DNA of 64,000 nucleotides from a candidate division KSB1 bacterium (GTDB lineage Bacteria > Zhuqueibacterota > Zhuqueibacteria > Residuimicrobiales > Krinioviventaceae), in NCBI GenBank assembly GCA_034521575.1, contig JAXHMJ010000003.1:62001-126000 (forward strand). The letters run 5' to 3'. The translations under genes and the position numbers were made by a program. Below the pieces are notes generated by a model. That model was not told where the DNA came from, searched no databases, and saw only the letters and a program-made list of their open reading frames with translations. Shown here one piece after another: positions 7,490 to 24,338 of the stretch. Within the stretch, counting starts at the first letter, position 1. Each line of letters starts with the position of its first letter.

Positions 7490-8456
7490 TTAATTACCGA
7501 CCTGATCCGGCATATCAATCCGCAAGACCGCGGATGACTCGTTTTTTCTGACATGGTTGATGTAATAATAGGTACCGCCGCCGATTGCCGCGGCGCCTAG
7601 CGCCCACCAGTACCATTTCTTTGATTTTAGTTTTGCATTTTTTGCATCCACAGGCAGCATACTGATGCGTCCTTTGATCCGTTGTCCGGCCGGAACCGAA
7701 AATTTCCCGGTTCGCGGTTCATAATGGCTGTGCGTGATGCGGTATTTAAAGGTTCCGGGCGGCAGCTGAGTAAAAGTGTGACTGCCGGTTGCTGTAAACG
7801 TCTCGCCGTTTTCGTGCCTTAAAACAATCGAGGCGTCCTGGGGAGTAAGCGAGAGATCGACAACGGCGTATTCGGAGCGGGCGTTCAGGTTGATCCGAAC
7901 CAGAGCATGCTCGAGGTCCACAGATACCACCGTATCCTTGCTCATGAATCCGGGTTTGGTATGCTGAAATGCGGTGCTGGCCGGGCGTCAACAAATGCTG
8001 GATATCCGTGCTCGGGTCGCCGCCGTCAATGCGCAGGGAGACATTTTCCGGATCAGTGAGGATTGTGACGGGAACGGGATGCTTTTGCGGCTCACCGGTG
8101 ATCTGGATTTGCCAAACCTGTCGACTTTTAAGATGAATTCCCGCCTCAAGTAATATAATTTGACTGGGTTTAAATCCGGTATGAAAAATTTCAAGAACGC
8201 GTTCATCCGGTGAGAGATACACCAAATCCTGTCCCGGCTGATGGTCCACTCGTACAACGCCGTTATAGGATGTATAACGCAGTCCTTCCAGGTCCGAGAT
8301 GACCTTGAGACCCGCGCATATGCGTCCATTTACATCGTCAACACCGACAAATTCGTTTTCAATGCGTATCGGTTGCCCCACCAAACGCATTTCCGGTATG
8401 TCCTGAGCAAAAGATAAACAGGCTGGAATCAAAATAATAAACAGTAAGCGTTTCAT
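7490..8456 (-). CDS. PEGA-like repeat envelope protein, frameshifted
   Basis: Two frames form one protein of about 321 residues with one extra base near 7965; GQHRISA in the first frame continues as FQHTKPGFMSKDT in the second. It has an N-terminal signal peptide (MKRLLFIILIPACLSFAQ). Two beta-rich PEGA-like units follow (VSLRIDGGDP..., and ASIVLRHENGE ... LPPGTFKYRITHSHYEP). A single C-terminal membrane segment (WYWWALGAAAIGGGTYYYI) precedes a short tail. PEGA domains occur in surface or periplasmic proteins and probably bind other envelope parts. The gene heads a two-gene transcription unit with the FISUMP lipoprotein. Confidence 0.65.
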
Positions 8457-8459
8457 ACT

Positions 8460-8522
8460 ACCCCTTGGAATTGGCTTTCCGTTTTTGAAACATAGGGCTT
8501 TTCTGTTTGAATTTCAAGGGGT
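8460..8522. promoter_or_regulatory. Spaced inverted repeat before the PEGA-like gene
   Basis: ACCCCTTGGAATT at 8460-8472 pairs with AATTTCAAGGGGT at 8510-8522 (12 of 13 positions), separated by 37 bases. It begins four bases from the start codon of the minus-strand gene. It could be an operator or a 5' leader hairpin; no factor can be assigned. Confidence 0.3.
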
Positions 8523-8555
8523 ATTTTGAGATTTATTGATTTAGCCCTTTGGATT

Positions 8556-8590
8556 GGCCGTGAAACTGTGTTTCGTGTTTGTTCCGAGCT
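8556..8590 (+). repeat. Partial REP-like repeat, copy D
   Basis: CGTGAAAC-tgt-GTTTCGTG followed by TTTGTTCC resembles the second hairpin of copies A and B. The GTTCC/GGAAC hairpin is missing. It lies in the 273-bp divergent gap between the PEGA-like gene and the sigma-54 activator. Confidence 0.45.
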
Positions 8591-8729
8591 GCAGCAAGCT
8601 TGTAACCTGCGAATAAAGCGCAGTGCAAATTATCCCTTGACCGCGTTCCATCAATTTATTATGTTTAGTTAAAAGATAGCGAATGATAACAACACCCTGT
8701 CAATTCTCCGTTAATGGTCACAAGATACT

Positions 8730-10522
8730 ATGAATAAAATTCCAGACATCCAGCGATTATCCTATTTCACCATCAAACAGTCCAATGAACCCGTTTTCTG
8801 GATCAAATCTGACGGTGAAATTGTACATCTGAACGAAGCGGCTCTGAATTACAGCGGATTTGCCTATGACGACATTGTGGGAACAAAGATATATGACCTG
8901 CATCCCCAGGAAAACGAGCACACCTGGAAAGAACGGTGGCGGGAGCTGCAGGACAAGAAACGCGTTGTCTTTGAAAAATGGCAGCCGCGCCAGGATGGCA
9001 GCTGGCTGCGCATGAAAGTCACCCAGAATCTGATTGAGGTGGACGGCGCCGAATATACGGTGAGTCTGGTTGAAGACAAGACGCGCGAGTATGAAATGCA
9101 GCAGCAGATGCGGGAGAGCGAACGGCGTCTGTCTACACTGATGGGCAATCTGCCCGGTATGGCTTACCGCTGTTTGAATGACGACAACTGGACCATGCAG
9201 TTTGTCAGTCAGGGCTGTGAAGCGCTGACCGGATACAAAGCAAAAGATCTGATCGGCAACCGCGTGGTGGCCTTTAATGAACTCGTTCATCCCAAAGACC
9301 GCGTACGTGTGAAAAGAGCCGTAAGAGCCAGGCTCAAGAGCGGTGAACACTTTAAAGTCACCTATCGCATTCAAACGTCAAACGGAACAGAACGCTGGGT
9401 CTGGGAGCGCGGCACGCCGGTGCCGTGTGAAGAATCCGATTGCACGGTGATTGAAGGATTTATCTCTGATATTACCGATATGAAAAACGCCGAGCAGGAG
9501 CTGATTGAAAAAGAAAAAACCCTGCGCCAGCTCAAAGACCGGCTGCAGGAAGAAACCGTGTATCTGCGCCAGGAGATCAAGGCCACCAGCAATTTTGAAG
9601 AGATTATTTCCCGCAGCGAGGTGTTTCATCAGGTGCTGCGCCATGTGGAAAAAGTTGCGGATACGGACAGCACGGTGCTGATCCTGGGGGAAACGGGGAC
9701 CGGCAAGGAACTCGTTGCGCGGGCGCTGCACAACAACAGCAGCCGCAGCAATCGCGCATTGGTTACAGTCAATTGCGCCGCCCTGCCTGCAGAGATGATC
9801 GAAAGCGAATTGTTTGGTCATGAAAAAGGTGCGTTCACCGGCGCTTATGAAAAAAGAGCGGACGGTTCGAGCTTGCGCACCAGGGCACAATTTTCCTGGA
9901 TGAGATCGGCGATCTGCCTTTGAATCTGCAAACCAAGCTGCTGCGCGTGCTGCAGGAAGGCGAATTCCAGCGGCTGGGCAGTTCCCGGACCATCCAGGCG
10001 GATGTTCGCGTGATTGCCGCTACAAACCGCGATCTTGAGGCCGCGGTGCGCAGCGGCGATTTCAGAGAAGACCTGTATTACCGGCTGAATGTGTTTCCGA
10101 TTTGGGTGCCGCCGTTGCGCGACCGTAAAGAGGATATTCCGCTTTTGGTACGGCATTTCATTAAAAAATACGCGGCCAAAACAGGCAGACAAGTGCGGGA
10201 AACCTCGCAAAAAGTCATGGATCAGCTGATGAGCTATGACTGGCCCGGAAACATCCGGGAACTCGAAAATGTGATTGAACGCGCTGTAATTCTGTGTGAA
10301 GGGGAACGCATCAAACCGGGGAGCTGGATACCGGCGTCTAAAGGCGAAGAACAGGCTTATATCTCTACGCTGGAAGAACACGAGCGCGAACATATTCTCA
10401 AAGCACTCCAGGCCACCAACTGGCGCGTCAGCGGCGCAAACGGCGCGGCGCAGCTGCTCGGACTCAAACGCACCACGCTGGAGGCGCGTATGAAAAAACT
10501 GGGGATCCAGCGACCTCAATAA
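8730..10522 (+). CDS. PAS-PAS sigma-54-dependent transcriptional activator, frameshifted
   Basis: Two frames give one protein of about 597 residues; one G appears to be lost near 9861, just after GAFTGA. Two PAS domains (about 10-120 and 130-255) and a short coiled coil precede an AAA+ domain with Walker A GETGTGKE, the sigma-54-contacting GAFTGA loop, the LDEIGDLP region, an AATNRDL sensor and WPGNIRELEN. The protein ends with a Fis-type helix-turn-helix (AAQLLGLKRTTLEARMKKLGI). It should remodel the RNA polymerase-sigma-54 closed complex in response to a small ligand or redox signal sensed by PAS. There is no receiver domain. The next gene has a -24/-12 promoter and an inverted repeat in front of it, so that gene is the obvious candidate target. 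Confidence 0.88.
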
Positions 10523-10557
10523 TGCCAATATATTGACATGATGCCGAAATATTGGCA
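10523..10557. promoter_or_regulatory. Inverted repeat, candidate activator binding site
   Basis: TGCCAATAT (10523-10531) is repeated inverted as ATATTGGCA (10549-10557), starting one base after the activator stop codon. The right arm is itself part of a second near-palindrome, TGCCGAAATATTGGCA. No T-run follows, so a terminator is unlikely. It lies about 90-120 bp upstream of the -24 element, the usual range for sigma-54 enhancer sites, and the activator's Fis-like domain would bind such dyads. This is inference. Confidence 0.45.
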
Positions 10558-10643
10558 ATTTGACAACAGTTCTGTAACACAAAATAGTTTAAAAAAATTA
10601 CAAGTAATTGTATTCAAAGGATATAGGGGTTTATATATTTTTG

Positions 10644-10660
10644 TGGCACGGTCCTTGTCT
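10644..10660 (+). promoter_or_regulatory. Sigma-54 (-24/-12) promoter
   Basis: TGGCAC-GGTCC-TTGTCT matches the TGGCAC-N5-TTGCW consensus except for T in place of C in the -12 element. The spacing is exact. Transcription would start near 10670 and give a 5' leader of about 175 bases, which contains a hairpin CAAAGAT...ATCTTTG at about 10670-10692. Confidence 0.6.
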
Positions 10661-10844
10661 ATTAGAAGACCAAAGATGATCGATGATCTTTGATCCTGGC
10701 AACTGCATAATTCTGATTGCCGGAATCGATCCGTTTTCGGCCATATTTTGACCGGTCAGAATGGAGGTCCGGTCCTCAGAATGTACAGATGTGACGATCA
10801 GGCATCGGTATTTTATTATTTACACACAAACGAAAGGAAACATC

Positions 10845-11423
10845 ATGAAATGTGCACGAATTGCAGCAGTTGGAGTTTTATTATTGTCGTTCATGACATT
10901 GCAAGCGCAGGACCGCTGGAGCTTTGATATCCGGGGCGGAGCCGACTATGCGACAACAGAGTTGGGTGACGCGGATCTCAATGTTGGGCTCGGTTTCGAA
11001 GGCACTGCGGCGTATCGTTTTATGCCGCATATGGCAGTCTATATGGGATGGGGCTGGAATCATTTTAACGCAGACCAGTCATTTGCCGGTTCAGACATTG
11101 ATTTTGAAGAGACCGGCTACACCTTTGGTATACAATTCGTTCATCCTCTCGGTGATACACAAACAAGTTACCTTGTCCGGGCCGGTGGTGTCTTTAACCA
11201 CATCGAAGTTGAAGACCAGGAACGGGATTTTATAGGCGACTCTGAACATGGTTTCGGCTGGCAAGTCGGTGCCGGACTTTTGGTTCCCCTGAATACCCAT
11301 TGGAGTCTCACACCCAGTGTGCGTTATCGGTCGTTATCAAGTGAGATTGAAATTGACGCAGCCGCAACAGATGTGGATCTAAACTATATTTCAATCGGAG
11401 TTGGTATATCCCGGTCATTCTAG
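10845..11423 (+). CDS. Outer-membrane beta-barrel protein (small porin-like)
   Basis: A 192-residue protein. I use the ATG at 10845 because it follows AAAGGAA at good spacing and opens a clear signal peptide (MKCARIAAVGVLLLSFMTLQAQ); an earlier in-frame ATG at 10761 adds a non-hydrophobic stretch. The mature part has alternating strands and ends in an aromatic residue (SRSF), the outer-membrane insertion signal, consistent with an 8-stranded barrel of the OmpW/opacity type. It lies behind the sigma-54 promoter and a terminator follows, so it is probably a single-gene unit controlled by the upstream activator. Confidence 0.8.
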   Translation: MKCARIAAVGVLLLSFMTLQAQDRWSFDIRGGADYATTELGDADLNVGLGFEGTAAYRFMPHMAVYMGWGWNHFNADQSFAGSDIDFEETGYTFGIQFVHPLGDTQTSYLVRAGGVFNHIEVEDQERDFIGDSEHGFGWQVGAGLLVPLNTHWSLTPSVRYRSLSSEIEIDAAATDVDLNYISIGVGISRSF

Positions 11424-11439
11424 ACCCTGGAGGTATTAG

Positions 11440-11474
11440 ATGCCGGGCGTATCCTGTGCGTCCGGCATTTTTTA
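11440..11474 (+). terminator. Rho-independent terminator after the beta-barrel gene
   Basis: ATGCCGGGCG pairs with CGTCCGGCAT (one G-U pair) around a 9-base loop, followed by a run of T from 11468. It ends the beta-barrel transcript. Confidence 0.75.
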
Positions 11475-11511
11475 AGCTGAAACGTTTGCACTAAAATCAT
11501 ACAAAGGCAAG

Positions 11512-12318
11512 ATGAAATACACAATTTTCATATTTTTGATTGGATTGATTGGTTCTGTCTCTGCAAATTCCGGCATACAATTCCGGGTCTCTGCCGGCCT
11601 GGATGTATTTGAGGCCAGGACTCGGAAAAAAAATACCATGATCATGAAAACCGGTTATCCGGTGCTCAAGGGTCAGCCGCTGCATGCAGGCATGCGTGTT
11701 TCCATTCCCGGCGAAAACAGTGAGCATCATTTTTTATTCAGCCTGTCGCATTCTTCTTTGATTTCTGATGACGGTCTGGGTCATAATTATATTCTGCAAA
11801 GCGCAGACAGCAAATTCACCTGCTTGCAGCTCGAACATCAAATGCAGATGGATATCCTTCGGTTTTACGCCTTTGATGTGGATTTTGCCCCGCTTGCCGG
11901 GATTGAATATCAAAAAAGGCATTTGATTTATCCCGGTCAGGCTGAACTGAAAACATCGGATGTCAATGTCTTTTTCGGTATTCGAACACTGCCCCGGCTT
12001 TTGCTCACAGAACGGTTTAGTTTGCAGTCCGGTTTTGATTCGTTTTTTTATCTACCGTATTTAAATATGGGCAGCCTGAAGAGATGGAACAGCAGACATG
12101 ATCAAATTGAATCTACACCATATCACGGATTTTACTACAGGACCCGGTTTCATTGTGCGTTGGTTTACAGGATTGAGGATAGAGATCTATTGAAACTGGG
12201 CTACCGGCATGAGAGAACCGTGGGTTTTGCCAATCGAACCCCGTTGTTTTATATCGATGAACTGATCCATCACCGTATGGATGAGTTACACCGCATCTAT
12301 CTGGAATATCAGTTGTAG
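11512..12318 (+). CDS. Secreted hypothetical protein, probable outer-membrane barrel
   Basis: A 268-residue protein with a signal peptide (MKYTIFIFLIGLIGSVSAN). The mature part is rich in alternating aromatic and polar strands and ends RIYLEYQL, consistent with an outer-membrane beta-barrel. I do not recognise a family. The following lipoprotein gene begins 12 bp after the stop, so this likely starts an operon through at least 13928. Confidence 0.6.
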   Translation: MKYTIFIFLIGLIGSVSANSGIQFRVSAGLDVFEARTRKKNTMIMKTGYPVLKGQPLHAGMRVSIPGENSEHHFLFSLSHSSLISDDGLGHNYILQSADSKFTCLQLEHQMQMDILRFYAFDVDFAPLAGIEYQKRHLIYPGQAELKTSDVNVFFGIRTLPRLLLTERFSLQSGFDSFFYLPYLNMGSLKRWNSRHDQIESTPYHGFYYRTRFHCALVYRIEDRDLLKLGYRHERTVGFANRTPLFYIDELIHHRMDELHRIYLEYQL

Positions 12319-12330
12319 GAGGCCTGATTG

Positions 12331-13128
12331 ATGAAATCTGTTCAAATAATGATACCGTGCATATTGCTGCTGTTTTCCTGTACGGAATTTATCGCAGAGC
12401 CGGACCTGGATGATAACTGGCAGTTGGCGGAAAACGGACCGATCAGGCTGTATACCAAACCTGCGGGCGCCGGTGACGCACCCTCGCCAAACCAACAGCA
12501 GATCAATACGATTCTGGAAAATCAGTTATTCTATTATCAGGCTATTCAGGACAGCATTCAGCGTTCATTCAAAGATCCGGTGTTGATCTATTTGTACAAT
12601 AAGGATCAGGCGCAGGAGGCCATCGGCACCTCCGGCGGCGGACTGGCGCAGCCGCGCCACTTGACGATTTATTACACGTTTCTTCATGATAATGCTGCGT
12701 ATACGGACCAGTATGGTATCGAGTGTCCCTATGTGGGTGCGCATGAGCTGGTGCATGTGATCACGCATCAGGCGCTGGGTCATCCGGGAACCCGGCTGAT
12801 GAGCGAAGGTTATGCGGTATGGCTGGACGGCAGTTATGGTCGGCGGGATATTGAGGATCATATTTCTGCATTTCACGAGCAGCATCCTGACTTTCTGCTG
12901 ACACCCACACAGTTGCTGCAGGAAACCGTGGATGCCGAACGCATCTACTATCCGAATGCCGGAATGTGGGTTCGTTTTGCCACAGAAACCTATGGGATTG
13001 ACAAACTGAATCAACTTTTTACCGTGAGCCGTGAGCAATTTATCAAAAAATTTAAGACAACCGGGATCTCCTGGTCACGTATGGAGTCGGATTATGATCA
13101 ATATTTACAACAATTAAAGGAACACTAA
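12331..13128 (+). CDS. Lipoprotein with HExxH zinc-peptidase motif
   Basis: A 265-residue exported lipoprotein; the lipobox cysteine is Cys17 (LLFSC). The ATG at 12331 follows TAGGAGG with 7-bp spacing; a TTG one codon earlier is less likely. HELVH at 138-142 is the HExxH zinc site, and E159 in MSEGYAVW is well placed as the third ligand, as in gluzincin (MA clan) peptidases. It therefore probably hydrolyses peptides in the periplasm or at the outer membrane. The rest of the sequence is too divergent to name a family. It is followed after 2 bp by another lipoprotein gene. Confidence 0.7.
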   Translation: MKSVQIMIPCILLLFSCTEFIAEPDLDDNWQLAENGPIRLYTKPAGAGDAPSPNQQQINTILENQLFYYQAIQDSIQRSFKDPVLIYLYNKDQAQEAIGTSGGGLAQPRHLTIYYTFLHDNAAYTDQYGIECPYVGAHELVHVITHQALGHPGTRLMSEGYAVWLDGSYGRRDIEDHISAFHEQHPDFLLTPTQLLQETVDAERIYYPNAGMWVRFATETYGIDKLNQLFTVSREQFIKKFKTTGISWSRMESDYDQYLQQLKEH

Positions 13129-13130
13129 AA

Positions 13131-13928
13131 ATGAAAAAAATACTATTGGGTGTCATCATGATGGGACTATTGAATTGCAGTTCAAACAAGCAGGTCGGCC
13201 GGTTTTTTTCAAATGCAAATCCGGTCAGCGGCGCCCGCTTTTCTTATGAGCAACTGGACAGTCTGCCGCAGCCGGTGCAGCGCTATTTTAAATATGCACT
13301 GCCCGACGGACAGCCTTACCTGAGTTATCTGCGTCTGCAGCACAGCGGCACGTTTCAAACCGGAATGGGCAAACCGGCCATGGATATCAAAGGCGAACAG
13401 TACTTTACTGCTCAACCGCCGGGATTTGTCTGGATCGGCAAAACCAGACTGTTCCGGGCGCATGACTCGTATGTGAATAATACCGGAAATCTTTCGGTGT
13501 ATTTGTTCGGACTTTTGCGCATTGTCAACAGCAGTGGCGAAACCATCGACCAGGCCGAACTGCTGCGCTGGCTGGGCGAGAGCGTGTGGATGCCCACCAA
13601 CCTGCTGCCGGATGAGCATAAACAGTGGTCCGCCATTGATGATCAAACCGCCAGGATCACGTTCACCTGGAACGGTCAGTCGGTGTACTATATCGTGCAT
13701 GTTAATGAACAGGGACAAATCACCCGACTGGAAACCGAACGTTATATGGACGAGAACACGCTGAAAGACTGGGTCGGAGAGGTCAGTGAATACCGCGAGG
13801 TGGACGGTGTGCTGGTGCCGACGGAAATCAAGGCAAGCTGGCTGTTGGATGAGGGAAAATACACCTATGCACATTTTTTTGTCGACACCTTTGAATATGA
13901 TGTGCCGCGGCGTTTTGAACGGAACTGA
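13131..13928 (+). CDS. Lipoprotein, DUF6544-like
   Basis: A 265-residue protein with a short signal and lipobox (MGLLNCSS). The region around LPQPVQRYFKYALPDGQPYL and the later W-x-P-T-x-LLP and DGVLVPTEIKASW blocks resemble the DUF6544 group, whose function is unknown. The predicted fold is mostly beta with a hydrophobic pocket, as in lipid-binding periplasmic proteins. It lies 2 bp after the peptidase lipoprotein and 24 bp before the thioredoxin-like gene, so it is part of the same operon. Confidence 0.6.
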   Translation: MKKILLGVIMMGLLNCSSNKQVGRFFSNANPVSGARFSYEQLDSLPQPVQRYFKYALPDGQPYLSYLRLQHSGTFQTGMGKPAMDIKGEQYFTAQPPGFVWIGKTRLFRAHDSYVNNTGNLSVYLFGLLRIVNSSGETIDQAELLRWLGESVWMPTNLLPDEHKQWSAIDDQTARITFTWNGQSVYYIVHVNEQGQITRLETERYMDENTLKDWVGEVSEYREVDGVLVPTEIKASWLLDEGKYTYAHFFVDTFEYDVPRRFERN

Positions 13929-13952
13929 ATTCGGAGAGGCGGATCCTACACG

Positions 13953-14258
13953 ATGAAGTTGAATCAAGCTATACAGAAAAAACAAAATATTATCGTCGAG
14001 TTTTTCACAGACTGGAGCGCGTCATCTTTTATGATGAGTGAGCTGCTCAAACAGCTGCAGCGCGAATATGCTGCTCGGTTTAAAGTGTTTTTCATCAATG
14101 CAGACGAATCCGGGCCATTATGCGCACAATACCGCGTTCAGAAAATTCCCACACTGGTGTTTATCAAACAAGGGCAGGTGGTCAAGATTCTGGAGGGCAC
14201 AGCGTCGCGCTCGGATATGATCAATCTCATCGAAAAGTTGTTTTTGAAAAAAGATTGA
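13953..14258 (+). CDS. Thioredoxin-fold protein lacking the CxxC active site
   Basis: A 101-residue cytoplasmic protein with the full thioredoxin outline: IIVEFFTDW, then a central strand FKVFFINAD, then the cis-proline loop KIPTLVFIKQG. Where thioredoxins have WCGPC this protein has WSASS, so both redox cysteines are gone. One cysteine remains at LCAQY. It cannot act as a classic disulfide reductase and may be a binding or chaperone-like protein, or be decaying. Base errors are less likely because both cysteine codons are changed while the frame is intact. It follows the DUF6544-like gene closely. Confidence 0.75.
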   Translation: MKLNQAIQKKQNIIVEFFTDWSASSFMMSELLKQLQREYAARFKVFFINADESGPLCAQYRVQKIPTLVFIKQGQVVKILEGTASRSDMINLIEKLFLKKD

Positions 14259-14267
14259 GGAATCATT

Positions 14268-14819
14268 ATGTTTTTTACAACATCGAATTCGGTCAGATTG
14301 TCATTTCAAACATATGGGAATCCGTGCAATCGTGCCATGCTGTTGATACACAGATTGGGCGCGGACGGACAGATGTGGGGGCCGCAAATCAAACTGTTTC
14401 CGGACCAGGGATATTATTTGATTGTACCGGATGTGCGCGGTCATGGACAATCATCAGAGGTTGAGACGTTCAGCATAGAGGATTGTGCCCGGGATATGGT
14501 GGAATTGATTGATCATCTCGGGATTGAAACCGTGACCGTGGTCGGTGTGAGTATGGGCGGGGTGATTGCGCAGCAGCTTGCATGTGATTATCCGGATGCT
14601 CTGGACAAGCTGATCCTTTGCGACACGTTTAGTGCGGTCAGGTCAATCAAAACCAAAATCGGCGGCTGGTTTGTTAAAGGCAATCGTCAGATAGCCGAAA
14701 ACATACCCCAAAGCCGATTTGTCGTTCTGGAAAACAGCATGGATCCCTCCAATTTGGTTGCAGCCGAGTGTTTTAACCGGGAGGTCTTGGTCTTTTTGCA
14801 AAACAAAGATGTAGAATAA
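14268..14819 (+). CDS. Alpha/beta hydrolase with an internal deletion
   Basis: A 183-residue protein; intact relatives are about 250-270 residues. The N-terminal half is normal: a lost HG motif (LLIHRLGADGQMW), DVRGHGQS, and the nucleophile elbow GVSMGG. After LILCDTFSAVR the sequence jumps to NRQIAENIPQSRFVVLENSMDPSNL, which is the C-terminal end of such enzymes. The lid and the strand carrying the catalytic aspartate are missing, and the catalytic histidine position reads Asp. The protein is probably inactive. The frame is intact, so the deletion looks like real decay and not a single-base error. It lies 9 bp after the thioredoxin-like gene. Confidence 0.7.
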   Translation: MFFTTSNSVRLSFQTYGNPCNRAMLLIHRLGADGQMWGPQIKLFPDQGYYLIVPDVRGHGQSSEVETFSIEDCARDMVELIDHLGIETVTVVGVSMGGVIAQQLACDYPDALDKLILCDTFSAVRSIKTKIGGWFVKGNRQIAENIPQSRFVVLENSMDPSNLVAAECFNREVLVFLQNKDVE

Positions 14820-14828
14820 TCCCTTTTT

Positions 14829-14862
14829 GCCCCCTGGTCAAGGGGGCTGTGCTTGTTTTTTT
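14829..14862 (+). terminator. Probable terminator after the hydrolase
   Basis: GCCCCCT-ggtca-AGGGGGC forms a 7-bp GC stem at 14829-14847; a T-run follows at 14855-14862 after a 7-base spacer. It would end the 11.5-14.8 kb transcript. Confidence 0.5.
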
Positions 14863-14881
14863 AAAAATAGAAAGGTTTATC

Positions 14882-14974
14882 ATGAATAAACATATTTTAT
14901 TGGATAAACTCATAGCTTCAATCGGTTCATCACTTTTAATGAATAAAAAAACCAGAGGTCAATATGTTATCTGA
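14882..14974 (+). CDS. Possible 30-residue leader ORF
   Basis: An ATG at 14882 follows AAAGG at suitable spacing and reads 30 codons to a TGA that overlaps the start of the nitroreductase gene by 11 bases. The overlap would allow translational coupling. The product begins MNKHILLDKLIASIGSSLL and resembles nothing I know. It could be a leader peptide, a deletion remnant or chance. Confidence 0.3.
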   Translation: MNKHILLDKLIASIGSSLLMNKKTRGQYVI

Positions 14975-15944
14975 AAATAAATCACGGGCCGTAACAGTCA
15001 TGAAAGATATAATCCGGTATGCCATCATGGCGCCCTCGGGACACAACACGCAGCCCTGGCTGTTTTCGATTGATGAAAATGTCATTACAATCCACCCGGA
15101 TTACAGCAAACGTCTGCCGGTCGTGGATCCGGATGATCACGCTTTGTTCATCAGTCTGGGCTGTGCTTTGGAAAATATGGTGATCGCGGCTCGTCATTAC
15201 GGGTTTGAACCGTCTGTTGATTTGGACCCGGAATCTGATGAAATAAAAGTTGCATTCACAAAAAATGGTGGTGCAGACGATAACCGTCTTTTTGAGGCCA
15301 TTCCGCAGCGTCAGGCCGCCCGCCGAACCTATGACGGAAACCCGATTCCGGAAAAGGATCTCGAGGCGCTGCGAAATGCATCTGTTCAGGATGATGTGCT
15401 GTTCAGGATTTTCAAAGACCCTGTCGAAATTGAACCGCTTGTTGAATTTGTCAAAGAGGGCAATCGTCTCCAGTTCAGCAACAATGCGTTTGTCAATGAG
15501 CTGATCTCGTGGATTCGCTTTAAAAAATCGGAGGCGCAGCGCCAAGGCGACGGTCTGAATTCAGCATCAATGGGCGCGCCTTCCGTGCCTCAATGGCTCG
15601 GCAGGCTGTTTCTAAACATGGCGTCTGCCGAGGGTGAAGCGAAAAAATGCGAAAAGGCCATCAAAAGCTCCTCTGCATTGATGATGTTCATTGCAGAGGA
15701 TAACAGCAAACGCGCCTGGATCAATCTGGGCCGCAGCTTTGAACGTGTTGCGTTAACCGCCACCCGCTTGAATATCCGGCATGCGCATCTGAATATGCCG
15801 TGCGAGGAACAACATCTGCGCAAAAAACTGCAGAATCATTTGAATTTAACTCGGGAACAACCGCTGCTGCTGCTGAGAATCGGTTATGCCGACCCCATGC
15901 CCTGTTCTCTGCGCAGACCGGTTGAACAGGTTATCATCAATTAA
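14964..15944 (+). CDS. Acg-family FMN-binding nitroreductase-like protein
   Basis: A 326-residue protein of the Acg group of the nitroreductase superfamily. AIMAPSGHNTQPW near the N-terminus is the FMN-phosphate-binding block; LPVVDPDDHALFISLGCALEN and the ending LLRIGYADP-x4-RRPVEQVI are also family marks. The middle (RRTYDGNPIP, SWIRFKKSEAQRQGDGL) fits. Members bind FMN; some may store flavin or reduce nitro compounds, and the real reaction is not established. It has no export signal, unlike its decayed relative at 16.5 kb. A membrane-protein gene follows after 14 bp. Confidence 0.8.
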   Translation: MLSENKSRAVTVMKDIIRYAIMAPSGHNTQPWLFSIDENVITIHPDYSKRLPVVDPDDHALFISLGCALENMVIAARHYGFEPSVDLDPESDEIKVAFTKNGGADDNRLFEAIPQRQAARRTYDGNPIPEKDLEALRNASVQDDVLFRIFKDPVEIEPLVEFVKEGNRLQFSNNAFVNELISWIRFKKSEAQRQGDGLNSASMGAPSVPQWLGRLFLNMASAEGEAKKCEKAIKSSSALMMFIAEDNSKRAWINLGRSFERVALTATRLNIRHAHLNMPCEEQHLRKKLQNHLNLTREQPLLLLRIGYADPMPCSLRRPVEQVIIN

Positions 15945-15958
15945 AGGAGGAAAAAACC

Positions 15959-16399
15959 ATGTCATCGAAACCATCACGACCCGTCAGCGTCTATCTGCTC
16001 ATGATTTTAATGCTGTTTCAGGGATTAAGCGGACTAGCCGGGGGAATCGGACTTGTTCTGGATCCGAGCGGTAAATCCATGCAGATTCCGCTGGAATGGC
16101 TGCAGGGCTCGCCGTTCACCACTTATTTAATCCCGGGCATTGTGCTTTTTGCCGTACTTGGATTGTTTCCGCTGGTCGTTTTTATCGGGCTGCTGAAACG
16201 ATGGCGCCTCGCCTGGTATGCATCGCTTTTGATTGGCATTGCGCTTATGATCTGGCTGACTGTCGAAATCATGGTGATCGGATACCAGCCGCAGCCGCCG
16301 CTGCAGGTGATTTACGGCCTGGTTGGGATTGGTATATTGACAACTGTATTGTTACCTTCGGTCAAGAAAAACTACCTTTTTATTTATAAAAACTATTGA
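15959..16399 (+). CDS. Four-helix integral membrane protein, unknown function
   Basis: A 146-residue protein with four hydrophobic segments (about 9-33, 55-78, 85-105 and 115-133). A strong AAAGGAGG site precedes the ATG at 15959. I recognise no family. It sits between two Acg-type genes and overlaps neither, so it may be co-transcribed with the intact one. Confidence 0.6.
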   Translation: MSSKPSRPVSVYLLMILMLFQGLSGLAGGIGLVLDPSGKSMQIPLEWLQGSPFTTYLIPGIVLFAVLGLFPLVVFIGLLKRWRLAWYASLLIGIALMIWLTVEIMVIGYQPQPPLQVIYGLVGIGILTTVLLPSVKKNYLFIYKNY

Positions 16400-16468
16400 T
16401 GTTAAAACGCTCTGTTTAAATCAATAGAATGAGTATTAACAAGATATTCTGTCAAGTTGAGAAGAACT

Positions 16469-17298
16469 ATGAAAAGAAGAGAATTTCTAAAATCATCACT
16501 GACGTTTGCGGGTGCCTTGAGCAGCTTACCCATAATCACTTCCTGTGCCGGCGTGCACAGAAGATCACTAGCGGAATTCGAAAGTGGGGAACGCTTATTA
16601 CTTGGTGTACCGGGGCGAATGATGCACATATTAAACTACGGGGCCTTGGCCCCCAGTGGTCATAATACACAACCATGGCTTGTGGAAATTATATCCGATT
16701 CCGAGTTGATCGTCCAATCGGATCAAAGTCGATGGCTCCCCCAGGTCGATCCGGACAACCGGGAAACCTTTCTCTCCCTGTCAGCCTTTGCAGAAAGCAT
16801 TCGGCTGGCAGCCCGATCATCAGGTCTGCATGCTGAGGTCGAACTGATTGCCACCAGCAGGAAGGATCAGAATGTGTTTAAAATAACCTTGAAGCAAAAA
16901 TCAGGCATGCAGCATAATGATCTAAACCTGATTAAAAAACGCTCCACCACGCGCAGCAATTATGAAACCCGTGAGCTTGCAAATAATACAGTTATGCCTT
17001 TAATGGATTTGGATCGCAAGCATGTACATTATTTTCCATTGCAGAGTCAGGAAGGGCAATGGATTGCTGATCATCTGCCGGAAGCTATTCAGCAACAAAC
17101 GTTCAACGATGCCAAATAGAAGGAACTTTGCCAATGGTTGCGCTTTTCCAAAGATAATATTGAAAAACGGCATGATGGGCTGACAGCAGAAGCTTTGGGT
17201 ATGAATGGGATGACCCGATTCAATTTGTTATTCGTGTGGGCTATGGTGAAAAGTCAAAGCCGAGTATACAAAGGCCAGTAAAAAGCTTTGTCATATAA
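16469..17298 (+). pseudogene. Tat-exported Acg-type nitroreductase, decayed
   Basis: It starts with a twin-arginine lipoprotein signal (MKRREFLKSS ... LPIITSC) and continues with the same GALAPSGHNTQPW and DPDNRETFLSL blocks as the gene at 14964. The frame stops at 17117-17119 (TAG). Directly after the stop the same frame reads KELCQWLRFSKDN, homologous to the SWIRFKKSE part of the intact copy. A segment of roughly 100 residues is then missing, and in another frame the C-terminal block (IQFVIRVGYGEKSKPSIQRPVKSFVI) runs to a TAA at 17298. One stop, one deletion and one frame change together indicate a true pseudogene. The first 216 residues could still be made. Confidence 0.75.
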
Positions 17299-17436
17299 GA
17301 GAATGACTTGTTCATGTTTAGAAAAAAGGACACATTACAGGTGCAATCACTTCAGATGAACGAAAGTCATGTTTTATTGTATATGAAAAGATATTAAAAC
17401 AAATCCTTGAATAATAAGGTGTTTGAAAATGATTGA

Positions 17437-18183
17437 ATCGGTAACGATACAAAAGAAGATAATGAAGAGAACTATACGCCCCGGATTTTCCAGGTCCGCG
17501 CCAACATGCAGCGGAAACTGTCCGCCGAGACCTATGTGGGTCTTAAAGCTAATTTAAAATATCACAAGATACTCACCATCGCGGATGGCGAATTTCAAAG
17601 CAGCGGCGATATTGTCGGCAGAGGAACCGGTACGGCATCCGGTTTGGGAGTGAGTCTGACCCGGGATACCCGGAACAATGTTTTTTATCCGTCTGCAGGG
17701 ACGCTGTTTAAAATTGCAGTACAGCGATTCGACGGCCTGATTGGCAGCGATTATGATTTTACCCGATTGAGTGCTGATGTTCGCAGCTATCTCCGACCGT
17801 TCCAATCCCATATAATCGCCATCAATGGCTATGCGAGTTTCATGACCGGCAATCCGCCGTTTCATATGCTTTCCTTACTCGGCCAAGTTGGCGAACGAAA
17901 CGTCATGCGCGGCTATTATCAGGGACGATATCGGGATAATAATATCCTTGTTTTGCAAACAGAGTATCGTATGCCGGTCTGGTGGCGTTTTGGCTGTGCT
18001 GTGTTTGGGGGTATTGGCGATGTGAGTCATAAAATGAGTGGATTAAAAAGGCGCCGCTGGTTTCCAGCGGGTAAATATTACGGCGAATTTTCTCTCACGC
18101 AGGCTCTGTATGGTTGTCCTTGTCAGTTGAGTCTGGGGAAAAGCGCTTTTTTCGGTTTAGCTGAAATTGTGGTTCAAAAATGA
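17437..18183 (+). pseudogene. BamA/TamA-type outer-membrane barrel, C-terminal remnant
   Basis: The open frame begins at 17437 after a stop and reads GNDTKEDNEENYTPRIFQVRANMQ and on to 18183. The content is the last half of a surface-antigen (Bac_surface_Ag/Omp85-like) barrel: GLGVSLTRDTRNNVFYPSAGT is the typical strand motif, and GERNVMRGYYQGRYRDNN is the conserved (V/I)RG(Y/F) lid-lock region. POTRA domains and signal peptide are absent, and no start with a ribosome site precedes it. An internal ATG at 17506 would give 225 residues with no export signal. I read it as a truncated remnant. Confidence 0.65.
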
Positions 18184-18243
18184 TGTACGGGTGTAAATCG
18201 ACAAATGAACAAGTCATGAACAAGAATGAGAAAGGACCCGAAC

Positions 18244-18822
18244 ATGATGAGAATGTTTTGTACCTTATTATGCCTGATAGGTCTGACCGCTTCAAGCCTT
18301 TTTTCGCAGTCTGAAAAAAAATGGTCACAATCGAATTACAGGCATTCAATAGAGACGAGTCCGTTGTCGCCATTGCTGCAAATGGCAGATAAAGGTATCT
18401 GGGGTATAAAGTATGAATATGCTTTGACACCACACGATGAGCTAAAGGTAGGTCTTGCCTATATGAACATTCATTTTGATGAAGGCAATACCAACTCACC
18501 CGGTTTGATCCTGGGATACCGCAGGTATGTGTGGAAAAAATTATACATAGAGTATGAATTATGGCCGTGTTATGATGCCTTTTATGAAAAAAACGAGGAT
18601 ACTTACTATCGGGGTTTCGATCTCTGGAATGAGTTTCGGCTTGGCTATCAGTTTAATTTCCAGATCAAAAAAGTGCCCATGTTCGTCAATGTCGCCTGGC
18701 CGTTTGGTTTCGGTCTCTATAGTATAAACAAACCCGACAGTTTTTATGACCGCATGAACCAGGGCTTTGGTGATAAATATTATTATCAATTTCCTTTGAT
18801 ATTTGTCGGTCTCAAGTTTTGA
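18244..18822 (+). CDS. Secreted hypothetical protein, probable small beta-barrel
   Basis: About 192 residues. The ATG at 18244 follows AGAAAGGA at good spacing; an upstream ATG at 18226 would add six residues and lacks a ribosome site. Signal peptide MMRMFCTLLCLIGLTASSLFSQ. The mature part alternates aromatic strands and ends IFVGLKF, the terminal-Phe signal of outer-membrane barrels. No family recognised. It sits between two decayed genes. Confidence 0.6.
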   Translation: MMRMFCTLLCLIGLTASSLFSQSEKKWSQSNYRHSIETSPLSPLLQMADKGIWGIKYEYALTPHDELKVGLAYMNIHFDEGNTNSPGLILGYRRYVWKKLYIEYELWPCYDAFYEKNEDTYYRGFDLWNEFRLGYQFNFQIKKVPMFVNVAWPFGFGLYSINKPDSFYDRMNQGFGDKYYYQFPLIFVGLKF

Positions 18823-18879
18823 AATGAACTCAATGTGATCGGTTAATAATTAATTACACCTGATCTTTTAATTCAAGGA

Positions 18880-19175
18880 ATGAAAACTGTGAACCGTAAA
18901 AATATTATTTCATTCTATTAGAGGGATACCGCGGATTTACCGTTGGAAAATTAATAACAAGCATTCGGGTAGAAAAATAAGATGGTGGACATCCGGGCAT
19001 TGTAAAATCCTTGATCAGAAATGTGTTACGAATGATCGACGGTCTGCCGGCATTAAATATCGCTGGAATCATTTCCATATTGCTTTCACAGGAAAATGCC
19101 CGAATCGGAGACAAATTGGCCAAAACCCGGATTGTCAAACATCAATCAACCGAAAACCGGTCATCATGCTTTTAA
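18880..19175 (+). pseudogene. RDD-family membrane protein, decayed
   Basis: A start with a ribosome site (CAAGGA-ATG at 18880) gives MKTVNRKNIISFY and stops at once (18919-18921). From 18921 another frame reads EGYRGFTVGKLITSIRVEK, a TAA at 18978, then DGGHPGIVKSLIRNVLRMID and an RIGDKLAKTRIV ending. The GxTxGK, R-N-x-LRxID and R(I/L)GDxLA-T-V blocks are those of the RDD family of small membrane proteins. The N-terminal helix pair is deleted. Neither piece exceeds 70 codons, so automatic calling would miss it. Confidence 0.65.
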
Positions 19176-19323
19176 TACCGACGATCCCGCAAAGAGCGGT
19201 TTAAACCAGTCGGGGATTTTTTTGTACCATTGGGCCGTATGATGCGTAAAACAATCTGTGGCAAAGTCAAAGGCCTAAAAATCAAAAGTAAAATATATAA
19301 AAAATATCAGGTTTGGTGATCCT

Positions 19324-20493
19324 ATGAAAACAGTGTTTTACAGTATTACTGTTGTTATGATACTGGTATCGTCCGGGTATTCAGCCGAGGTGGAGGATTA
19401 TCTGCAGGTGCTGCGGGGTCAGGGACAGCAGCCGGCCGAATTTGTCAGGGAACAGCTGATACAGCATGATCTGTTAATTTTGGATGATGGACTGCATGCA
19501 GCGGTGGAGCCGTTTGAATTTATTACCGATTATTTACGTCAATATCCGCACAGTGTGGACGTGCTGTTTCTTGAAGTCATTCCCATCAATGTCCAGGCAG
19601 ACATTGATTCGTTTATGCACTCAGAAGTTAGGGACACCATGCTGCTGGCGCCGGTGTTTCAGGAGGATTTTCGTTACGGTTGGCCGTACGAGACCTATCT
19701 GGATCTGTTCTGCGCGGTGTGGGAGATCAACCATGAATCCGATGCGGACATCCGCATTGTGGGCGTGAATCAGCCGATTTACTGGGAGGGACTGCACACC
19801 CGTGAGGATTATAACACATTCCAGAAAAGCTTGATCGGACGTGATTATTTCATGTACAAAACTATTTTGGGGCATATGAACGGGTTTGAATCCGGATTAA
19901 ACGGTCTGTTTATGACCAATACCCGGCATGCCTACAAATGCATCCGGGATTCAGGCGGCGATATCTACTGGAATAGCGGTACCTTTTTTCACCAGTGGCA
20001 TCCGGGACAAACCTTTTCCATCCGCTTTCATAATATGAGCCTGAACGTCAAAGCAGAAAAGAACATGGAAAACGCTTCAATGGAAGGAATGGATCGTCTG
20101 GTCTATGAATGGATTCGGCTGGACGATGGACGCTGGGATCAGGCCTTTGAACAAAACGCCAATCAGCCGGTGGCGGTGCCGTTTGAGGGGAACGGTTTCG
20201 GAGAGACAGCGTATACCGGCAATCATTCCGCGGATGCCCTGCCCAGACAGACGCAATACGATGCCTATGATGCGCTGATTTTTCTGAAACCGCTTGAAGA
20301 AACGCGGTTCAGCGCACACACCAAATTTTACTATACCGATGCGTTCAAAAAAGAGCTAAAACACCGGGTACGGGTGATGCATGGACATGATCTGGAAAGA
20401 TTTTTGATCCAAAATAATGTTGAAACGGTCACCGGCTATGTGGAAAAGCTGTCGGAATACAGACCGGAGACCCCGAATCCACTGGTTGAATGA
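19324..20493 (+). CDS. Exported protein, weakly erythromycin-esterase/ChaN-like
   Basis: A 389-residue protein with a signal peptide (MKTVFYSITVVMILVSSGYSA). The block HDLLILDDGLHAAVEPFEFI followed by VDVLFLEVIPIN resembles the strand-helix-strand with conserved Glu/His of the EreA/ChaN/TIKI fold, but the match is loose and the GE-x-H signature is changed to DGLH. Later NTRHAY and TFFHQWHPG carry further histidines that could bind metal. Function unknown. It appears monocistronic, with 148 bp of leader from the RDD remnant and 178 bp to the helicase. Confidence 0.55.
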   Translation: MKTVFYSITVVMILVSSGYSAEVEDYLQVLRGQGQQPAEFVREQLIQHDLLILDDGLHAAVEPFEFITDYLRQYPHSVDVLFLEVIPINVQADIDSFMHSEVRDTMLLAPVFQEDFRYGWPYETYLDLFCAVWEINHESDADIRIVGVNQPIYWEGLHTREDYNTFQKSLIGRDYFMYKTILGHMNGFESGLNGLFMTNTRHAYKCIRDSGGDIYWNSGTFFHQWHPGQTFSIRFHNMSLNVKAEKNMENASMEGMDRLVYEWIRLDDGRWDQAFEQNANQPVAVPFEGNGFGETAYTGNHSADALPRQTQYDAYDALIFLKPLEETRFSAHTKFYYTDAFKKELKHRVRVMHGHDLERFLIQNNVETVTGYVEKLSEYRPETPNPLVE

Positions 20494-20671: not shown

Positions 20672-22979
20672 ATGGCTGATAAACAAGAGATTCCCCGCTC
20701 TACAAAAGTCCCTTATTATCGCAAACCCGCGGATTTAAACGTCGATGAATGGCAAACGGCTCTAAGGCGTCAGTTTGCTGAAAATCAGGAATTCGAAATC
20801 AGGAACAGGGGAGACCATCCGGTGTTTTCCGATTTTACGGTGTTTAATCCGGAATCCGGGAATACCTACAAGGTCTGTATTCGGGACAATGAACACAGCC
20901 ATCATTTTTGCTCCTGCCCGGATTTCAGAACCAACGGTCTGGGCACCTGCAAGCATATCGAAAATGTGATTCTGACGCTTCAGAAAAATAAAAAAAATTG
21001 GACCTATTTTAATCAAACGCATCCCCAAGCTTATTCCTCTCTGAGTTTGTACTATGGGCATGAACGGCGTCTGCGCTTGAAAATCGGTGGGGAAAACGGC
21101 GGCGCTGTAAAGGAGGTTCTAAAACCTGTTATCGACCGCAAGGGATTTGTGAAACCGGAAAAACTGGCTGAACTTGAGCCTCTTATAGAAAAAGTTGTAG
21201 CGCTTGATCCTGATTTTAGAGTTTACCCGGATGTGTACGAATTCATACAGGGACACCAAAAGCAACGGCAACGCCGGCAACTGGCGCAAACCCTGTTCCC
21301 ACAAGGTATTCAGAGTCCGGTGTTCGATGACTTGATCCGAACCCAACTCTACCCTTACCAAAAGGAAGCGGTGATCAAAACGTTTACTGCCGGCCGGGTT
21401 CTCGTCGCCGATGAAATGGGATTGGGCAAAACCGTTCAGGCGTTGGCTGCTGTGGAGCTGTTTGCGCGTTATTTAAATGTCAGGCAGGTACTGATTGTTT
21501 GCCCCACATCATTGAAATATCAGTGGCAAAAGGAAATCGAAAAATTTACCGGGCGTTCGTCTTTGGTGGTCGAGGGGCTGGTTCACAAACGCAAATCCCT
21601 GTATCAAGAACCTGAATTTTATAAAATCATCAGTTACGGCATCACGCGCAATGATCAAGAGTTGATCAAACACATGTCACCGGATCTGGTGATCATCGAT
21701 GAAGCGCAGCGCATCAAAAACTGGCAAACCAAAACCGCCAAGGCGGTCAAACAGATCCAGTCATCTTATGCCCTGGTCCTGACCGGCACCCCCCTGGAAA
21801 ACCGGCTTCAGGAACTGCATTCGATCGTCGAATTTATCGATATGTACAAACTGGGTCCATTGTTTCGGTTCCTGGACACTCATCAAACCACGGATGCTTT
21901 TGGAAAGATTATCGGTTACAAAAAGCTAAAATCCATCAACAAAACCCTGAAACCTATCCTTATTCGCCGTACCAAGACTGAAATCATTGATCAGCTGCCC
22001 GGCCGCATTGATAAAAACCTGTTTGTGGATATGACGAATGAACAGAAAAGCGATCATGATAACTATTATGAAGTTGTGTGCCGTCTGGTCACTAAATGGC
22101 GCAATCAGGGATTTCTTCGGGAAAAAGAACGTGAATATTTGCTAATCAACTTGTCCTGTATGCGTATGGTTGCGGATTCTACGTATATTCTCAATCAGGA
22201 TGTACGTAATGATGTCAAAATCGATGAACTGATGTTTCTTCTAACTGAAATCCTGGAAACGCCGCAGAACAAAGTGGTGATATTCAGCGAATGGAAAAAG
22301 ATGTTCGAGTTGGTGATCCTTGAACTTGAAAAACGCGGTATCGAATACGTGTATCTGCACGGCGGACTGTCACCCCGGCAGCGCAGGCATATCATCAGCC
22401 GCTATCATCAGGAGCCGAATCGTAAAGATATTTTTGTCCACTGATGCCGGCGGCCTGGGGTTGAACCTGCAATGTGCCAACATTGCCATCAATCTGGATT
22501 TGCCCTGGAATCCGGCCCGACTGGAGCAGCGAATTGCACGGGTTTATCGTCTGGGACAGAATCAGCATGCCTATATTTACAATTTTATTTCCAGAGATTC
22601 CATTGAAAACCGCATTTACCATTTGCTGGGATTCAAAAAATCCTTGTTCAGCGGCGCTTTGGACGGAGAAAAAGATACAGTCAGGCTGGATGACAAGCAT
22701 ATGGGCGGTTTTATGGAGACGGTGGAAACACTGACCCGCGAAGAGGCGCAGGACGATAAATCCACAGAAAAAAAGATAAAGAGTAAACCTCAACCGCGTT
22801 CAAAAGATAAAGCGAATCAACCTGATTCCGTTAGCCGGCCCGGGAAAAATCCGGTTACACGCAATGTTCACTCTCAACAAAAAAAGCAGCCACAACCGGC
22901 GGCAAAACAGCCGAAACGATCTCTGTTGCGTCGCATGGGGAAGATTGTCACGACATTTTTCAAATGGTTCAGACGGTAA
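20672..22979 (+). CDS. SWIM-zinc-finger SNF2 family helicase, frameshifted
   Basis: Two frames make one protein of about 768 residues; a base appears inserted near 22433, where KDIFVH stops and the second frame continues STDAGGLGLNLQ. The N-terminus has a SWIM-type finger (C80-x-C82 ... C93-x-H95). The SNF2 helicase follows: ADEMGLGKT (Walker A), IIDEAQRIKN (Walker B), LTGTPLENR, then the C-terminal lobe with VIFSEW, YLHGGLSPRQRR, NPARLEQRIARVYRLGQ. The last 90 residues are a Lys/Gln/Pro-rich basic tail. It is an ATP-driven DNA translocase; bacterial SWIM-SNF2 proteins are often linked to transcription recycling or defence. No partner gene is adjacent. Confidence 0.85.
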
Positions 22980-23142: not shown

Positions 23143-24338
23143 TTATCGTGTATAGGATTCGTAGCGTTTTTCAAGATTCGGGTCCTTGACCGTATCGAGA
23201 ATATAATCGCAGAATTCGCGTCCGGTCACGCCGGTATCCCGACCGGTGATCTGATATTTCTTTTCATACTGCTGACAAATTTCAAGCGCCATTTCCAGTT
23301 TTTTGCCGCGTTCTGTGAAACCGATGTGATTGAGCATCATGGTGGCGGCGCGAATCAGGCTGGAGGGATCTGCATAGTGACCGCGTCCCTCTTTGATCAT
23401 ACGCGGCGCCGAGCCGTGGATGGCCTCAAACATGGCGTAGCGTTTGCCGATATTGGCGCTGCCGGCGGTGCCGACGCCGCCCTGGAATTCCGCTGCTTCG
23501 TCTGTCAAAATGTCTCCGTACAGATTGGGCAACACCATCACTTTGAATTGAGTCCGGCGTTTGGGATCAACCAGTTTTGCGGTCATGATATCGATATACC
23601 AGCCTTCCCAGTTGATGTCCGGATAGTCCTTGGCCAGGCGTTCCGCCGTTTCCAGAAACAGACCATCGGTGGTTTTCACCACATTGGCCTTGGTGACCAC
23701 AGTTACAGAGTTGATGCTGTTCTTTTTCGCGTAATCGAACGCCATACGGATGATACGCTCTGCGCCCTGTTTGGTAATCACCTTGAAATCAATGGCCAGA
23801 TCCTCCGTCACCTGAAGACCCTGGCTGCCCAGCACATAGGCGCCCTCTGTATTTTCACGAAAGAATACCCAGTCGATGCCCTGCGACGGTACCTTGACCG
23901 GCCGCACATTGGCAAACAGATCCAGTTCCCGGCGCATCGCCACATTGGCGCTTTCGATATTGGGGTAGGGACCGCCTTTTTCCGGAGTCGTCGTCGGCGC
24001 TTTCAGTCACATGACAGCGCTTGCAGTTCCTCGAGCACATCATCCGGAATGGCCTGCATATGTTTGACCCGGTTTTCGATGGTCAGCCCGTCGATTGTGC
24101 GGAATTCCAGTTTCCCGCTTTTGATTTCATCCTCCAAAAGATGCTGCAATACCCGTTCGGTGTCCTGCGATATGTTTGGACCAATCCCGTCTCCCCAACA
24201 AAATCCAACGGTGATCGGTTTTTCCTGGCTATAGTCGATCCAGTCTTTGGCCTGTTTCAGCTGTTCAACCCGGTCCAGCTGTGCTTTAACCAGATTTTGA
24301 AAATGCTGTGCAGCCCGATCCAGTATTTCATCGCTCAT
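23143..24338 (-). CDS. icd: Isocitrate dehydrogenase, frameshifted
   Basis: Two frames combine to about 398 residues with one base missing near 24004 (LSCD then LKAPTTTPEKGGPYPNIESANV). GDGIGPNI is the start of the dinucleotide site; RRELDLFANVRPVK is the isocitrate-contact helix and loop; FFRENTEGAYV carries the catalytic Tyr region; DILTDEAAEFQGGVGTAGSANIG and EAIHGSAPR complete the family marks. The enzyme oxidatively decarboxylates isocitrate to 2-oxoglutarate. I assign isocitrate rather than isopropylmalate by the ANVRP and NTEG motifs; cofactor preference is not settled. It is the last recognisable gene of a four-gene operon with a citrate-synthase-like gene. Confidence 0.82.

Follow-up and report, generated by a model that had tools for sequence, protein, structure and literature searches.

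A predicted local sigma-54 switch made of a PAS-input activator, tandem palindromes and a -24/-12 promoter in a candidate division KSB1 bacterium

Results

An activator gene, two palindromes and a -24/-12 element precede a run of ten genes

The window analysed here is a 64,000-nucleotide stretch from a candidate division KSB1 bacterium. The part under study begins with a gene (8730-10522) whose product would be a sigma-54 activator (bEBP) with PAS input, and passes through two palindromes and a -24/-12 element into a series of genes on the same strand. The features are as follows.

8730..9923, + strand: activator, first part, with PAS (PF13426/PF00989), PAS_3 (PF08447) and the first half of the sigma-54 AAA+ domain, including GAFTGA
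9920..10522, + strand: activator, second part, in another frame, with the remaining AAA+ domain, the AAA lid and a Fis-type HTH (PF02954)
10523..10538, no strand: proposed enhancer site 1, TGCCAATATATTGACA, 7 of 8 pairs, kept in the orthologous loci
10542..10557, no strand: proposed enhancer site 2, TGCCGAAATATTGGCA, 6 of 8 pairs, 3 nt after site 1
10644..10658, + strand: putative -24/-12 promoter, TGGCAC-GGTCC-TTGT, with TGGCA(C/T)-N5-TTGT in all four orthologous loci and a predicted start near 10670
10845..11423, + strand: small outer-membrane beta-barrel (PF13505), first gene, product 56% identical to the first-gene product of L088
11512..12318, + strand: ORF for a protein of unknown family, 268 aa
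12328..13128, + strand: weak Pfam match to Peptidase_MA_2, below cut-off
13131..13928, + strand: DUF6544 protein (Pfam)
13953..14258, + strand: thioredoxin-family protein without CxxC (WSASS instead), a downstream gene in all four loci
14268..14819, + strand: alpha/beta hydrolase, frame ends early
14964..15944, + strand: Acg family FMN-binding oxidoreductase (NF047509, 306.1 bits, cut-off 199)
15959..16399, + strand: small hydrophobic protein, 146 aa, probably membrane (by eye), no Pfam or NCBIfam family
16457..17119, + strand: second Acg-like oxidoreductase (114.6 bits, below cut-off) with a Tat-like leader (by eye), frame ends early
17506..18183, + strand: Omp85-type beta-barrel fragment, gene start outside the frame, probable last operon gene

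Orthologues of the activator were found with a PAS-linker probe, and those with 55-67% identity across the whole probe, among the matches listed, were taken as true. This gave four orthologous loci: the window, L048 (a KSB1 MAG), L087 (a Caldithrix MAG) and L088 (a Neomarinimicrobiota MAG), the phyla of the last two apparently differing from that of the window. Orthologues were present in at least 2 of 82 genomes in the window's phylum, where 16 genomes had a match of some kind at 1e-30 and the best one after the orthologues reached 48%. For the phyla of L087 and L088 the figures were at least 1 of 40 (3 with a match at 1e-35) and at least 1 of 245 (14 with some match). So patchy a distribution hints at transfer or at numerous losses. 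No GAFTGA-type motif was found in the matched frame of 11 loci examined from the 77 past the first three, among the matches listed; the same pattern also missed the true orthologue in L087 (2598-4394), in which GAFTSA replaces GAFTGA.

The activator frame is probably interrupted by an assembly indel

The earlier note had described a PAS-PAS-AAA-HTH activator. Its domains were recovered by Pfam as two PAS regions, a sigma-54 AAA+ domain, a lid and a C-terminal Fis-type HTH (PF02954, 5.4e-9), but a single open frame was not: the two ORFs (8730-9923 and 9920-10522) lie in different frames and the split falls inside the AAA+ domain. PF00158 (Sigma54_activat) matched in both halves, and the GAFTGA loop lies in the first. 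The first PAS domain gave no match in the L048 orthologue, and among NCBIfam models the intact L088 orthologue came closest to that of the formate hydrogenlyase activator, at 419 bits against a cut-off of 830.

The frame offset was placed near 9857-9890, where the orthologues in L048, L087 and L088 are intact. A programmed frameshift is unsupported, since all three cross that place in one frame. Split frames were also found elsewhere: 4 of the 18 sigma-54 activator domains of this genome are split (26 rows minus three weak AAA matches of 21-36 bits, with nine rows merged into four split genes), as are an SNF2-helicase-like gene (20672-22979) and an isocitrate-dehydrogenase-like gene (23143-24338) in the window, both named by eye. 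Because of these other splits and the intact orthologues, we read the interruption of the activator as probably an assembly indel. Split or early-ending frames in conserved genes, seen here at 9857-9890, 14819, 17119, 20672-22979 and 23143-24338, are typical of uncorrected assembly indels. The division of the AAA+ domain between two frames would also fit a decayed pseudogene, with the circuit dead in this organism; we consider this very unlikely, because the other split activator domains and the two further split genes point to assembly indels and because the sites and the promoter are intact.

Two tandem palindromes of one type follow the activator stop codon at four loci

As the earlier note had stated, the activator ends directly before the dyad, with its TAA at 10520-10522 and TGCCAATAT starting at 10523. 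The dyad itself, described there as 9-17-9, was confirmed in sequence, with ATATTGGCA reaching to 10557, and revised in structure: its arms are the outer arms of two tandem 16-bp palindromes found at all four loci, and the single dyad was dropped. Both palindromes are of one type (TGYCRAWATATYGRCA-like) and are exactly 3 nt apart in every orthologous locus, with site 1 starting 0, 1, 1 and 4 nt past the activator stop codon. The sites read TGTCGATATATCGGCA and CGCCAAAATATCGGCA in L048, TGCCAACATTTTGGCA and TGTTAAAATATTGGCA in L087 (Caldithrix sp. Bin_012), and TGCCGATATATCGTCA and TGCCGAATTATCGGCG in L088. Self-pairing reached 7 of 8 for site 1 at all four loci and 6, 5, 5 and 5 of 8 for site 2; two loci have A-T, and the other two G-C, as the pair at positions 5/12 of site 1. 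When 130-nt stretches of the four loci were shuffled with dinucleotides preserved, the tandem-palindrome score was equalled or exceeded in 7, 18, 70 and 69 of 2000 shuffles. This support is modest per locus, but identical spacing recurs in all four. The palindromes are conserved in the orthologues, and their distance upstream of the promoter falls in the range expected of enhancer sites (about 100-250 bp).

The sites appear to be unique in the genome. The degenerate 16-mer, for which chance predicts 0.04 occurrences on each strand of 5.26 Mb if all bases are equally frequent, occurred exactly only at sites 1 and 2 in the 5,258,914-base genome (five contigs). With up to two mismatches it occurred 53 times forward and 57 times in reverse, compared to 50 and 45 for a control, which is little excess. 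The earlier note had raised a search for the dyad near other -24/-12 promoters; the four one-mismatch places taken (C3:61184, C5:600809, C5:1971573 and C2:537117) had neither a second site 3 nt off nor TGGCAY-N5-TTGY within the stretches retrieved around them. A weight matrix built from the sites was run over 210 loci (1.62 Mb) and found tandem pairs solely in copies of the four loci, a scan that tests uniqueness and is no independent proof, the matrix having been trained on those loci. The recognition helix is much alike across the four orthologues; this says little, because near-identical helices also occur in more distant activators with tandem sites unlike this consensus.

The same segment folds well as RNA. 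Only 2, 0, 0 and 20 of 200 shuffles at the four loci folded as well or better, and the inner arms pair in part too, so that the 9-17-9 dyad could be a hairpin ending the activator mRNA, as a terminator or 3' stabiliser, with no role as a DNA-binding site. However, tandem copies of one palindrome necessarily fold in this way with or without an RNA role. Furthermore, none of the four loci has a run of four or more T within about 15 nt downstream, and other activators of the phylum have different palindromes at this place, ahead of the promoter. We give the RNA hairpin only a slight chance and prefer tandem DNA-binding sites.

Two further observations concern palindromes in this setting. A near-perfect one, AGATGATCGATGATCT, lies at 10674-10689, directly past the predicted start site, and none was present at that position among the five best of each of the other three loci. 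Six related activators (L036, L038, L039, L040, L041 and L050), 57-63% identical over the C-terminal 200 aa, are followed by palindromes of other sequence, of the TCAGGAATTCCTGA type in five and TTTTGACATATCAAAA in L050, with promoters of the form TGGCA(C/T)-N5-TTGA.

A conserved -24/-12 element follows the sites

The earlier note had also placed a -24/-12 element about 90 bp past the dyad, and TGGCAC-N5-TTGT was indeed found 86 bp on, at 10644-10658. Compared to TGGCAY-N5-TTGC, the -24 part and the spacing fit, while the -12 part is TTGT and not the consensus TTGC, as it is in all four loci. Across the four loci, 96-130 bp separate the centres of the sites from the GG of the promoter; for site 1 the distances are 115, 115, 119 and 130 bp. 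The -24/-12 match by itself is weak: 70 occurrences were counted genome-wide, and 45 of the reversed pattern. The genome does have rpoN (PF04552, 204.7 bits), an intact 467-aa ORF with ARRTVAKYREQ located 26 kb before the window. Least probable of the alternatives is that the operon runs from a sigma-70 promoter at 10560-10588 (TTGACA-N17-AATAGT, 10/12 match; such matches number 29 over 8400-19400, compared to 17.4 in shuffles, sd 3.9) while the dyads serve another DNA-binding protein, since the four-locus alignment keeps the -24/-12 element and the tandem sites but not the TTGACA hexamer (the sigma-70 scan itself covered the window alone), and the activator gene adjoins in all four loci.

The promoter probably serves a whole operon

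An outer-membrane protein gene does stand behind the promoter, as claimed earlier: the PF13505 gene starts at 10845 and encodes a small barrel of the OMP_b-brl type, at most a putative porin. Porin expression alone proved too narrow a reading. Two of the four loci open with a barrel gene, but in L048 and L087 there is none behind the promoter and the thioredoxin-like gene comes first. Because ten same-strand genes follow in the window, the target is probably the whole operon, with its two Acg-type oxidoreductases, rather than one porin gene. These genes (10845-18183) are all on the + strand, cover about 7.5 kb and are mostly less than 100 nt apart; the operon end at the Omp85 gene was set by conservation, and no terminator was used. 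The longer gaps, 14819-14964 and 17119-17506, adjoin genes with broken frames, and terminator-like patterns over 8400-19400 are somewhat above shuffles (16 versus 11.2). The two long gaps, this excess and the varying gene content count against the proposed circuit, as do the broken activator frame, the T at -12 and the sigma-70-like match.

Gene order was compared as far as the contigs allowed, those of L087 and L088 stopping inside the operon. In L088 the barrel gene comes first behind the promoter and the thioredoxin-like gene second. The order after the thioredoxin-like gene in L048 is shortened Acg gene, 146-aa gene, Omp85 gene; in L087 the 146-aa gene is next, and the contig reaches no further than its start. 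The thioredoxin-like gene (window 13953-14258; L048 9392-9694; L087 4551-4874; L088 12388-12699) is thus common to all four loci and the barrel gene to two. Its product matches solved thioredoxins in sequence, and both active-site cysteines are absent in all four loci, CxxC being replaced by WSASS, SNASS, WSASS and WSGSS. The L048 Acg gene (9758-10240) lacks its middle, with residues ~76-240 of the window protein unmatched, and its frame is nevertheless open. In G011, a relative from the same order, a second contig, L201 (7.9 kb), carries the thioredoxin-like gene, the hydrolase, DUF6544/Acg remnants and the 146-aa gene in window order; neither activator nor sites were found on that contig. 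The thioredoxin relative of this second KSB1 copy (L201 2582-2881) is without both active-site cysteines too.

Sampled promoters near activators of the phylum often lack C at -12

We collected 120 stretches (L241-L360) behind activator genes of the phylum, from list rows 3-62 without gaps and then 20 and 40 lower rows. Some lower rows were omitted by hand, the full activator list is longer, and similarity to the window activator was the basis of collection. For TGGCAY-N-TTG in 80 stretches, spacing 5 gave 23 forward and 0 reverse matches, compared to 0-4 forward for spacings 2-4 and 6-9. In the first 300 nt of the 120 stretches, TGGCAY-N5-TTG gave 29 forward matches and 1 reverse. The base at -12 was A in 18, T in 6, C in 1 and G in 1 of the 26 unique forward matches with TGGCAY; with TGGTAY (n = 10) it was C in 7 and A, T and G in 1 each. 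The association of -24 with -12 gave a Fisher value of 1e-4, which rose to 6e-4 when five promoters from the genome of the window itself were included, in a sample whose related genomes are not independent. Three of those five promoters read TGGCAY...TTGC, contrary to the pattern. By our own count from part of PMC3844500, 25 of 29 Salmonella intergenic sigma-54 sites have C at -12; TTGT is not unheard of, as pspA and pspG in that set have it. As a lead only, the sampled sigma-54 promoters by activators in the phylum mostly have A or T, not C, at -12. A tentative extension, which we hold to be rather doubtful, is that sigma-54 promoters by activators in the KSB1 lineage balance their elements, a strong -24 (TGGCAY) going with A or T and a weaker one (TGGTAY) with C.

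Discussion

Sequence analysis establishes the activator domains, the sites and their spacing and conservation, the uniqueness of the site in the genome and the presence of rpoN. A switch of these parts is supported because the arrangement of activator, sites, spacing and promoter recurs in all four loci, which span several deep lineages, and we regard it as quite likely that a PAS-input bEBP drives the neighbouring operon through two tandem sites and a sigma-54 promoter, as a local regulator. The proposal of the earlier note that the activator controls its neighbour thus gains support from four-locus conservation and from rpoN in the genome. Dimers of the Fis-type HTH would occupy the two 16-bp palindromes directly past the activator's own stop codon. 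The AAA+ domain would then hydrolyse ATP and, with the DNA looped, convert the closed complex that sigma-54 RNA polymerase forms at TGGCAC-N5-TTGT into an open one. Transcription would start near 10670 and yield a transcript of about 7.5 kb for the barrel, the thioredoxin-like protein, the Acg-type oxidoreductases, the small hydrophobic protein and the Omp85 barrel. The activator would be local and probably single-target.

Judged from these features, the circuit is real but ordinary, a fresh example of a well-known design, the single-target bEBP with tandem enhancer sites. FhlA and NifA have GAF-type input. Circuits of the FhlA/NifA class, whose upstream sites belong to the TGT-N10-12-ACA type described in PMC6615313, resemble the present one in their Fis-type HTH, 16-bp TGY-N10-RCA palindromes, a distance of about 100-130 bp before -24 and a neighbouring target; they differ in that the input in the window is PAS-PAS, the operon is neither hydrogenlyase nor nif, and the -12 part is TTGT. 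In the Clostridiales sigma-54 regulons published in PMC6615313, sites are TGT-N10-12-ACA, several per target and 100-250 bp upstream, PAS input is common, targets are usually co-localised, and 65% of EBPs go with one operon. This single-operon design is shared with the window circuit, in different phyla; the words 'nitroreductase' and 'thioredoxin' are absent from the main text of that paper. In the open-licence PMC literature, we found no paper on sigma-54/RpoN in KSB1 or Caldithrix.

The earlier note had suggested a small-molecule or redox signal sensed through the PAS domains, which is a guess. In the DosR regulon of M. tuberculosis (acg, Rv3131; PMC3110807), the regulator answers hypoxia and nitric oxide. 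Both systems have Acg-type FMN oxidoreductases, inducible in that regulon; dosRS is a two-component system, whereas the window regulator is a sigma-54 activator, and we do not claim the same signal for it. By analogy, the operon may have a role in redox or hypoxic stress, and hypoxia-type or redox stress as the activator's signal, taken from the Acg family, is likewise a guess.

If promoter elements were balanced as tentatively proposed above, the TTGT circuit, with four orthologues in three lineages, would be a tuned promoter, and an easier-melting -12 pair would be part of activator action; the -12 lead could bear on how activators melt sigma-54 promoters. The predicted circuit would place a flavin oxidoreductase of the Acg type and a relative of thioredoxin without cysteines in one probably inducible operon, and an uncultured phylum gains a testable set of regulator, site and promoter, whose consensus may be used for finding others.
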